From contig SKJB01000141.1 in assembly GCA_007116145.1 (NCBI GenBank), positions 1-32,201 on the forward strand: 32,201 nt of DNA, given 5' to 3'. The notes beneath the pieces were generated by a model. It made no database searches. It saw nothing but the letters and a program-made list of their open reading frames with translations, and had not been told where the DNA came from. Source of the stretch: Limnochordia bacterium. GTDB taxonomy: Bacteria; Bacillota; Limnochordia; Darwinibacteriales; DTU012. Positions 14,524-24,347 of this stretch are shown here, one piece after another. Position numbers and translations under genes: made by a program. Each line of letters starts with the position of its first letter. The stretch's first letter is position 1.

Positions 14524-14580
14524 TGCATTTACCCCTTTATGGAATAATACTTTCGAGGTTAGTATTGATTTTCCTGCTAT

Positions 14581-14616
14581 TAATAAGACCCTCTTATCGC
14601 AAAGAGGGTCTTATTA
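14581..14616. terminator. Terminator after ilvE
   Basis: TAATAAGACCCTCTT (14581-14595) pairs perfectly with AAGAGGGTCTTATTA (14602-14616) around a 6-base loop, 5 bases past the ilvE stop. It separates ilvE from the HTH-MBL operon. The U-tract is broken by A, but the 15-bp stem is strong. Confidence 0.75.
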
Positions 14617-14621
14617 ATAGC

Positions 14622-15536
14622 TTAACGAACAGGAGTACACCAGTGGGAGTACTTCTTGACTTTATTTTTGACGACATCAAAATAGAGTTTTTGGATCTCT
14701 GAGCAAATTGGACCCATATGTCCTGTGCCAATCATTCGCCGATCAATCTCGGAAATCGGACTAACCTGAGCCCCAGTGCCCACAAAAAATGCTTCATCTA
14801 CTACGTATAGTTCCGTACGGTCGATCTCTCTTTCAACTGTGGCGATTCCAAGTTCCTCGCGCGCTAAGTCAATAATCGTATTTCTCGTAATACCTTCTAA
14901 AATATCTCCAGTAACAGGAGGAGTAATCAACTTACCGTTGCGTACGAGAAAAATATTTTCTGCACTTCCTTCAGAAACATGCCCACTAGAGTCGAGGAAA
15001 ATGGCTTCGTCATACCCGTCGACCTGCGCTTCGCTTTTCGCTAAAGCTGCATTTACATAGGCGCCATTGATTTTTGCGCGCATAGGAATCATGTTGTCCT
15101 CTACATGACGCCAAGACGAGACTCGAACTTTTAATCCTTTTGCTAAATCTAGATAGGCGCCGAACGGGACGGAGAAAAGCAGAAAGTCATCGTCTAAACC
15201 ATCAAGTTTTACTCCGACAAATTCTGAGCTCTTATAAAAAATAGGGCGAATGTAGATATCTTGTCTATCTTGGCTTTTGGCCACTACATCCAGGGTTATC
15301 TGGCACAGTTCTTCAACCGTGTATCGAGGTTTTATTTTTAGTATTTTACAGGAATTGAGGATTCTTTGGTAGTGCTCTTTCATTCGGAAGAGATACATCT
15401 GTTGATCGTCGTCGTTCCAATAAGCACGAATTCCCTCAAAACAGGCTGTGCCATATAGAAAAGCATGGGTGGTAATGCTCAGTTTAGCATCTTGCATGGG
15501 TATAATATTACCTTGAAAAAATGCATAGCGATTCAA
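14622..15536 (-). CDS. ilvE: Branched-chain amino acid aminotransferase
   Basis: PLP class IV aminotransferase interconverting leucine, isoleucine and valine with their 2-oxo acids. From the chosen start it has 304 residues. The PLP lysine is K155 in RAKINGAYVN, and the class IV signature GHVSEGSAENIFLV follows, with E189 contacting the cofactor. FEGIRAYW near the N-terminus is typical of IlvE. The frame extends to an ATG at 15578, but a strong AAGGAGGT lies inside that extension at ideal spacing before TTG 15536, which begins the usual NRYAFFQGN sequence, so TTG is the likely start. It stands alone without other ilv/leu genes, is divergent from murG and ends at a strong hairpin. A D-amino-acid or aminodeoxychorismate-type member is less likely given the motifs. 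Confidence 0.92.
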   Translation of the reverse strand: MNRYAFFQGNIIPMQDAKLSITTHAFLYGTACFEGIRAYWNDDDQQMYLFRMKEHYQRILNSCKILKIKPRYTVEELCQITLDVVAKSQDRQDIYIRPIFYKSSEFVGVKLDGLDDDFLLFSVPFGAYLDLAKGLKVRVSSWRHVEDNMIPMRAKINGAYVNAALAKSEAQVDGYDEAIFLDSSGHVSEGSAENIFLVRNGKLITPPVTGDILEGITRNTIIDLAREELGIATVEREIDRTELYVVDEAFFVGTGAQVSPISEIDRRMIGTGHMGPICSEIQKLYFDVVKNKVKKYSHWCTPVR

Positions 15537-15681
15537 GTTAGTTACCTCCTTAAAAATATATCTGCTACTATTTTCCACTTTTATCTTGGAAACCCTGCAA
15601 GAATTTGTTAAGCTAGTAATAAGTTCTCACAAGTTGTATAAATTGTATATATGGCTGATGAGGAGGTAGGAGGTTGGATTT

Positions 15682-19079: not shown

Positions 19080-19805
19080 ATGTCTGGACATTCTAAATGG
19101 AAAACGATTAAAAATCGTAAGGCAGCGCAGGATAATAAGCGCGGCCAAGTTTTTACTAAAATTGCCCGTCAGATTACAGTTGCTGCAAAAGAAGGCGGAG
19201 CTGACCCAGACTCCAATGTTAAGTTACGCATTGCAATTGATAATGCGAAAGCTGTCAACATGCCAAATGATAATGTTGAACGGGCAATTAGCAAGGGAAT
19301 TGGTGGTCTTGATGGCAATAATTACGAAGAGATTGTGTATGAAGGATATGGACCAAATGGTGTTGCAATCTTATTAGAAGCGTTAACGGATAATCGTAAT
19401 CGCACTGCAAGTGAGTTGCGCCACAGCTTTTCTAAGAATGGCGGAAATCTTGGTGAATCAGGTTGTGTTGCTTGGATTTTTGAGAAAAAAGGGCTCTTAG
19501 TTGTTGATAAAGAAATAGTGAATGAAGAAGAGTTAATGCTTGCTGCTATTGAAGCAGGTGCGGAGGATGTAGAAATAGAAGATGAGGTATTCAAGGTGCT
19601 AACGGATCCCAGTAGTTTTTTGGTAGTCAAGAAGTCTTTGACAGATTCTGGTATATCCTTTCTAGCTACTGAAGTGACTATGATTCCACAAAATACAGTA
19701 ACTGTAACTCCGATGGAGTCAAACCGGTTAGAGAAACTCGTTGATATTTTAGAGGAACTTGATGACATACAAGCGGTTTATTGCAATTTTGAAGTTTCCG
19801 AGTAA
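19080..19805 (+). CDS. yebC: YebC/PmpR-family protein (TACO1 homologue)
   Basis: A 241-residue cytoplasmic protein of the universal YebC/TACO1 family, which has been linked both to transcription regulation and to translation of difficult (proline-rich) sequences at the ribosome. The N-terminus SGHSKWKTIKNRKAAQD and the following FTKIARQI and GADPDSNVKLRIAI segments are diagnostic, and the length is typical. ATG 19080 follows GTGGAGAT. In many Firmicutes yebC lies beside bofC and ruvCAB, as here. A strong terminator follows directly, so it forms a single-gene unit. Confidence 0.95.
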   Translation: MSGHSKWKTIKNRKAAQDNKRGQVFTKIARQITVAAKEGGADPDSNVKLRIAIDNAKAVNMPNDNVERAISKGIGGLDGNNYEEIVYEGYGPNGVAILLEALTDNRNRTASELRHSFSKNGGNLGESGCVAWIFEKKGLLVVDKEIVNEEELMLAAIEAGAEDVEIEDEVFKVLTDPSSFLVVKKSLTDSGISFLATEVTMIPQNTVTVTPMESNRLEKLVDILEELDDIQAVYCNFEVSE

Positions 19806-19888: not shown

Positions 19889-20383
19889 ATGCGCAGAGTC
19901 GGTATATTGTTGCTAACGGCCATTTTCTTTTTTAGTCTAAGTTTTACCATTACGTTTTTTGTCAATCAGCATGAAGATGCTGGCGAATTGGAGCCAGTGT
20001 TAGAGCCAGTCGGTGACTTGGTTATCGAATCATTACGCCATAAATCGCAAACTTCGTCAGAAGATGAGTCTGAAAAAGAATTAGTGAATTCCACACCCAT
20101 GGTTGAAATTGTTGAAGTTGTCGAATTCCCCCTATCATCCTACGAGATCTTAGAGGATGATAGGGGGAAAGAAGGCTTGAAACAGCGGTATATGGGAGTA
20201 CTCGGTGACTATGTAGCAGTATTCAAAGGAGAACCTGGAGTGGATAGTGTTTTGATAGAAGAGACCGAAATTCCTATTGTTAATTTGCCGGAGTTTGAGA
20301 TAAAAAATTTGCGTAAAGGTATTTCCTTTATGTCTGAAGAAGAGAAATATAGCATTCTGGAAGGACTTCATTTTCCGCGGTAA
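19889..20383 (+). CDS. bofC: BofC-like forespore protein
   Basis: A 164-residue protein with an N-terminal membrane anchor or signal peptide (about 5-25), an acidic low-complexity linker (about 28-95) and a C-terminal domain resembling the BofC C-terminal domain: YMGVLGDYVAVFKGEPG (101-117) and GISFMSEEEKYSILEGL (144-160). BofC of Bacillus restrains the SpoIVB protease that signals from forespore to mother cell during sporulation. Three things agree: the C-terminal motif, the position between yebC and ruvCAB, and the sigma-G-like promoter. AAAGGAGG precedes the ATG. The linker is encoded partly by a 16-bp perfect inverted repeat (20126-20169). Homology is by eye and the N-terminal half is not recognisable, so equivalence to Bacillus BofC is inferred. 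Confidence 0.72.
   Translation: MRRVGILLLTAIFFFSLSFTITFFVNQHEDAGELEPVLEPVGDLVIESLRHKSQTSSEDESEKELVNSTPMVEIVEVVEFPLSSYEILEDDRGKEGLKQRYMGVLGDYVAVFKGEPGVDSVLIEETEIPIVNLPEFEIKNLRKGISFMSEEEKYSILEGLHFPR
20126..20169. repeat. Perfect 16-bp inverted repeat inside the bofC-like gene
   Basis: TTCCCCCTATCATCCT (20126-20141) and AGGATGATAGGGGGAA (20154-20169) are exact reverse complements around a 12-base loop that itself contains AGATCT. It encodes residues 80-94 of the linker before the BofC-like domain. No T-run follows, so it is not a typical terminator. Confidence 0.95.
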
Positions 20384-20426: not shown

Positions 20427-20494
20427 GTCTGCTCACAATAACAGGACTCTCATGAAAACATGTCGAAACGTATATTCGAAGGATGTGTTATAAG

Positions 20495-20986
20495 GTGATC
20501 ATATTAGGAATTGATCCTGGAACAGCTATTACTGGATATGGTATAATTCAAACAGATCGTACAGGCAAGTTAACCGTGCTCGGATTTGGAGCGATTCGGA
20601 CTCCAGCAAACCAACAGGCTGAATTACGGTTGGTTAGCATTTATCAGGGGGTGCAACAGTTGATTGTTGAATTCAGTCCCGAATGCCTGGCCATTGAGCA
20701 ATTATTTTTCAATCGTAATGTTTCCACCGCACTAGCTGTGGGAGAAGCACGCGGGGTAACCATGTTAGCCGCTGCCCACAAAGGGTTAATGATAGGTGAA
20801 TATACTCCATTACAGGTAAAGCAATCCGTAACAGGTCAGGGACGTGCTCCCAAAGAACAGGTAGGATATATGGTTCGTTTATTACTAGGTTTAGAGACTG
20901 TGCCACAGCCCGATGATGTGGCAGACGCCTTAGCAGTGAGTATATGTCATGCTTATAATGGACAAGGATGGAGAGGACAAAAATGA
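20495..20986 (+). CDS. ruvC: Holliday junction endonuclease RuvC
   Basis: Metal-dependent endonuclease that resolves Holliday junctions made by RecA-type recombination, working with RuvAB. From GTG 20495 it has 163 residues, normal for RuvC. The four acidic catalytic residues are D7 (GIDPGT), E68 (LAIEQLFF), D141 and D144 (PDDVADALA). The GTG is preferred to the in-frame ATG 20483 because RuvC proteins begin IILGIDPGT and because GAAGGATG stands about 9 bases before the GTG; the upstream ATG falls within that site. Its stop overlaps the ruvA start (ATGA). Confidence 0.95.
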   Translation: MIILGIDPGTAITGYGIIQTDRTGKLTVLGFGAIRTPANQQAELRLVSIYQGVQQLIVEFSPECLAIEQLFFNRNVSTALAVGEARGVTMLAAAHKGLMIGEYTPLQVKQSVTGQGRAPKEQVGYMVRLLLGLETVPQPDDVADALAVSICHAYNGQGWRGQK

Positions 20987-24132: not shown

Positions 24133-24347
24133 AAATGATATACGTTGGCGATGAAAAAGAGGAGTACTTTACGGATGTGCGAAACAGAGAGCTTGGGTGA
24201 GGTGGAAACCAGGCATGCTACTTGCCGTATTGGAAGGCGCTTTTGAGCAGAGAACTATAAGAGGGTTGTGTTTTAAGCACCAACCAGGGTGGAACCGCGG
24301 AAGAAACCTTTCGTCCCTGATTTTCAGGGACGAAAGGTTTCTTTTTG
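24133..24347 (+). promoter_or_regulatory. Glycine T-box riboswitch
   Basis: A T-box leader sensing uncharged tRNA-Gly. The T-box sequence AGGGTGGAACCGCGG is at 24286-24300. Its TGGA element would pair with a tRNA ending UCCA, and tRNA-Gly has discriminator U. In stem I the 5' side carries the conserved AGTA (about 24163-24166); on the 3' side GAA is followed by GGC (24236-24238) and a purine, giving a glycine specifier for anticodon GCC. ACGG/CCGT pairing closes the specifier loop above it. The AGGG of the T-box can pair with CCCT of the terminator arm as the antiterminator. Uncharged tRNA should give readthrough. Confidence 0.93.
24302..24347 (+). terminator. T-box regulated terminator
   Basis: AGAAACCTTTCGTCCCTG (24302-24319) and CAGGGACGAAAGGTTTCT (24325-24342) form a perfect 18-bp stem with loop ATTTT, then a T-run. 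It ends about 35 bases before glyQ. Confidence 0.95.

Follow-up and report, generated by a model that had tools for sequence, protein, structure and literature searches.

How does a perfect inverted repeat with 16-base arms come to lie inside a protein-coding gene? The window, meaning the whole analysed stretch of 32,201 nucleotides, carries such a repeat in frame within a gene for a BofC-like protein. BofC is an inhibitor of the SpoIVB signalling protease, which acts in sporulation. We examined the geometry of the repeat, its rarity in coding sequence, its presence in related genes and its copy number, and weighed the possible origins against these observations.

Position, structure and rarity of the repeat

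The two arms are complementary at 16 of 16 positions and are separated by a 12-base spacer (Table 1); coordinates, arm length and pairing are all exact, as the sequence-only reading had described them, including AGATCT in the loop. Because AGATCT is centred on the dyad, 38 of the 44 repeat bases are symmetric; the motif is set off from the arms by three mismatched pairs. The first pair outside the arms is A/A and is unpaired, so the repeat ends abruptly. The 101 nt around the repeat fold with an energy of −37.3 kcal/mol (z −4.4), and none of 200 shuffles was equally stable. In 11 of the stem's 16 pairs, a first codon position meets a second one; in the remaining five, both bases are third positions.

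Table 1. Coordinates of the repeat, its host gene and the neighbouring genes in the window
Feature	Positions	Strand	Remarks
yebC-like gene, upstream of the bofC-like gene	19080–19805	+	order identical in 8 of 8 related loci
bofC-like gene, 164 aa	19889–20383	+	N-terminal hydrophobic segment, variable linker, BofC C-terminal domain (residues 99–159)
left arm, 16 bases	20126–20141	+	codons 80–84 and base 1 of codon 85 (F P L S S)
spacer, 12 bases	20142–20153	+	AGATCT at 20145–20150, exactly on the dyad
right arm, 16 bases	20154–20169	+	within codons 89–94 (E D D R G K)
ruvC, downstream of the bofC-like gene	20483–20986	+	order identical in 8 of 8 related loci

Spanning codons 80–94 of the 164-codon ORF, the repeat is in frame. 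The Pfam domain BofC_C was matched with 32.9 bits, above its curated cut-off of 21, and the protein belongs to the BofC family by this measure. Since the domain begins at residue 99, the repeat lies in the linker directly ahead of it and behind the N-terminal hydrophobic segment, and its earlier placement in the linker-coding part of the gene is correct. The gene is flanked by yebC and ruvC–ruvA; in the related loci, its place between yebC and ruvC was taken from a contig scan combined with YebC and RuvC matches. The source genome is a draft of 164 contigs, a setting in which an assembly or library fold-back artefact could arise; here, however, the reading frame is open before and after the repeat and is followed by a normal BofC domain and then by ruvC, which makes such an artefact improbable. 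An intrinsic terminator was also considered. Our terminator scan permits loops of 3–8 bases, so that a repeat with a 12-base loop is beyond its reach; read by eye, the sequence shows a mid-gene position and no T-run on either strand, as had been observed before.

To place the repeat among others, we surveyed 552 coding sequences of its own genome, which comprise 563,751 coding bases with the window included; these are ORFs of at least 100 aa picked by length, not curated genes. In this sample, the repeat is the sole perfect arm of at least 14 bases that lies fully within a coding sequence. The null expectation was obtained from synonymous-codon shuffles within genes, run 60 times on each sample; the three samples together hold 829,584 coding bases. 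Shuffled coding sequence contains one arm of at least 16 bases per ∼50 Mb; the number expected is ∼0.01 in the 563,751 sampled bases and ∼0.05 when the rate is scaled to the whole genome. For arms of 10, 11, 12, 13 and 16 bases, the observed counts are 9, 5, 2, 1 and 1, and the null means are 9.6, 2.4, 0.57, 0.15 and 0.017, respectively; there is no clear genome-wide excess of perfect repeats in the coding sequence of the sample over the shuffles. Nine relatives, sampled over 265,833 coding bases, had no arm of at least 12 bases. Of the other arms of at least 13 bases in the first own-genome sample, 14 lie between genes and 6 straddle a gene end, in a tally that included ORFs running off the stretch ends, which the survey of 563,751 bases excluded. 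In a ranking by best 50-nt folding energy, which covered the first sample with its 335 coding sequences and not the 217 from the second sample, the repeat comes first. A second, smaller in-gene perfect repeat of the same genome was noticed at L094:846–874, with 13-base arms and a 3-base loop, in a 421-aa ORF on the minus strand.

These numbers bear on a rival explanation, in which the 16 complementary bases arose by coincidence from single-base changes in a linker that evolves fast. The ∼0.05 cases expected per genome leave some room for chance; against it stand the expectation of ∼0.01 for the sampled coding sequence and the top rank of the repeat in local folding. We regard chance as possible but rather unlikely. 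The rarity of the repeat is strong evidence for a single window and moderate for a many-genome scan, since some arms with a frequency of one per ∼50 Mb will turn up when many genomes are scanned. The earlier statement that the repeat is very unlikely by chance thus holds for this window and is weaker for a large scan.

Related genes and further copies

In the protein search, 12 of 40 genomes gave a match, the own genome included, and the other matching genomes are all outside the genus; the viral contigs yielded no relative. Among the 11 matching relatives, L011 and L012, which share only the class, were omitted from the alignment and the arm survey, and nine were examined. The gene of the nearest relative is 52% identical over the alignment. 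Across the ten aligned proteins, the linker is highly variable in sequence and length, and the BofC domain is conserved. The hairpin is absent from the bofC genes of all nine relatives, in which the longest perfect arms are 5–8 bases.

The closest linker is that of L003 (genome G002), which aligns with the linker here as an ungapped 20-residue block starting from E-F/L-P, followed by a 10-residue gap. The BLOSUM62 score of this block is 26, which was reached by none of 20,000 shuffles; this register also accommodates L010, with weaker support (score 15, reached by 97 of 20,000 shuffles). The gaps fall elsewhere in the MAFFT alignment and in the pairwise alignments with L010 and L002, so that the register is hypothetical and best for L003; on this register, the homologous arm positions pair at 6 of 16 in L003 and 3 of 16 in L010, which is near random. 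Because the arms of the relatives are short and the homologous positions are unpaired, the hairpin appears to be lineage-specific, as far as relatives at the family and order level reach. At that level, we therefore see what the sequence-only reading had named as the observation that would speak against it, the homologous protein segment with its arms unpaired.

The same comparison bears on a recent small insertion that lengthened the linker, as had been proposed. A local change of the DNA was rightly suspected; however, the block aligns to L003 without insertion, and the linker here is 10 residues shorter than that of L003. The linkers of six relatives (L004–L009) are shorter than the one here, and the length varies freely.

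Could the repeat be a selected RNA hairpin, serving as a translational pause, an RNase site or an mRNA stabiliser? The high stability of the local fold would suit such a role. However, the hairpin is missing from the nine relatives, Rfam has no match at the repeat, and the register of the stem joins mainly codon positions 1 and 2; if pairing had been selected stepwise, it would have required linked amino-acid changes. We consider a selected hairpin unlikely. Membership in a conserved class of intragenic RNA elements is contradicted by the relatives, in which neither the stem nor the pairing of the homologous positions is kept. A younger effect, restricted to this lineage, is also conceivable: the hairpin in the bofC mRNA might slow translation or attract RNase, and thereby tune the amount of this sporulation checkpoint protein. 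Only the stability of the hairpin points to it, and we find it improbable. The symmetry of the 44 bases would fit a dyad at which a regulator binds the DNA; a site that is unique in the genome, lies in the middle of a gene and does not occur in relatives is, however, a very doubtful candidate for such a role. The suggestions of a translational pause, an RNase target or a protein-binding site are thus unsupported, as no examined relative keeps the hairpin.

Mobile palindromic elements of the Rickettsia RPE/REP kind can be inserted in frame into ORFs, and they resemble the bofC repeat in being short in-frame palindromes (PMC3733652); size and position would therefore be in keeping with such an element. 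Different from the bofC palindrome, which is single copy, the Rickettsia elements form multi-copy families (PMC3733652). The search for other genomic copies, which had been suggested along with the insertion, was carried out: in the own genome, the exact matches to the pattern are the two arms alone. Among the 36 genomes of the order that were searched, the own site is again the only one, the 35 others yielding no further site, and no site matching the palindrome was found in the viral contigs. With dispersed copies lacking in the genome and the order, and with a block that aligns to L003 without insertion, membership in an RPE, REP or MITE family is largely refuted, and a mobile origin is barely credible.

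Template switching as the probable origin

We favour, with a probability of roughly 0.58, an origin of the lineage-specific palindrome in one short template-switch event of replication that perfected the palindrome. In such an event, the polymerase would leave its template for a short while at one arm, copy the nascent strand by fold-back or the opposite strand instead, and then return; this would turn one arm into a precise reverse complement of its partner. In keeping with this origin, the repeat is perfect, ends abruptly, has a short spacer, occurs once and lies in an unconstrained linker; the examined relatives lack it, and their homologous positions pair at a near-random level. A single copying step would not require the linked amino-acid changes that the 11 pairs on codon positions 1 and 2 impose on stepwise selection. 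The palindrome may have persisted because it is in frame within a linker of freely varying sequence and length.

Which arm served as the source was asked with three measures. Amino-acid similarity favours the left arm as the old one, with BLOSUM62 scores of 6 (L003) and 7 (L010), compared to −1 and 0 for the right arm. By codon usage, the right arm (0.67) would be the older, the left arm (0.44) being below the 5% quantile of the sample (0.57). Nucleotide identity to L003 is about even, 8/16 and 9/16 for the two arms. As the measures disagree, we name neither arm as the source, and the template-switch event is an inference from the repeat and its setting. Two further observations count against it: the nearest bofC gene, at 52% identity, is too distant to display the state before the event, and coding sequence has no clear genome-wide excess of such repeats.

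Events of this kind have precedents. In-gene template switching is known from bacteria, phage and yeast (PMC7202029, PMC8604942): it makes quasipalindromes perfect in E. coli (PMC7202029), it altered 39 protein-coding genes in yeast (PMC8604942), and it can generate new perfect stems in one step (PMC8794818). Like the bofC repeat, the quasipalindrome mutations of E. coli thyA and lacZ, T4 rII and yeast CYC1 concern short perfect inverted repeats within genes; their arms were matched by copying, as we propose for bofC, and they differ from it in that their state before the mutation is known. Nematomorpha mitochondria likewise carry perfect inverted repeats within the frames of protein-coding genes, with gains and losses from species to species, and template switching is discussed for them too (PMC6649704). 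Those repeats are many, reach 284 bp and have conserved residues in both arms (PMC6649704), whereas bofC has a single one, 16 bp long, in a linker that varies.

If the template-switch origin is true, the repeat would be a bacterial case of one replication slip rewriting ∼5–6 adjacent codons of a protein linker. Such multi-codon jumps may be misread as positive selection or as RNA elements. The consequence for BofC biology is little; the repeat is a real but ordinary lineage-specific oddity.

Other elements in the window

In the Rfam search of the window, nothing was reported at the repeat, and the sole match is a ZMP/ZTP riboswitch (RF01750, 63.9 bits) at 246–328 on the plus strand, just upstream of a 758-aa ORF starting at 337. 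A leader at 24150–24345 (plus strand) contains AGGGTGGAACCGCGG, followed by a 20-bp perfect hairpin with a T-run (24301–24343), and lies ahead of ORFs of 293 and 688 aa. It is unreported by Rfam at the gathering threshold; from the motif and the gene names, we take it to resemble the T-box leader of glyQ–glyS. Another 20-bp perfect inverted repeat, with a 6-base loop, is found at 14576–14621; it abuts the minus-strand ORF 14622–15578 and is probably the terminator of that ORF.
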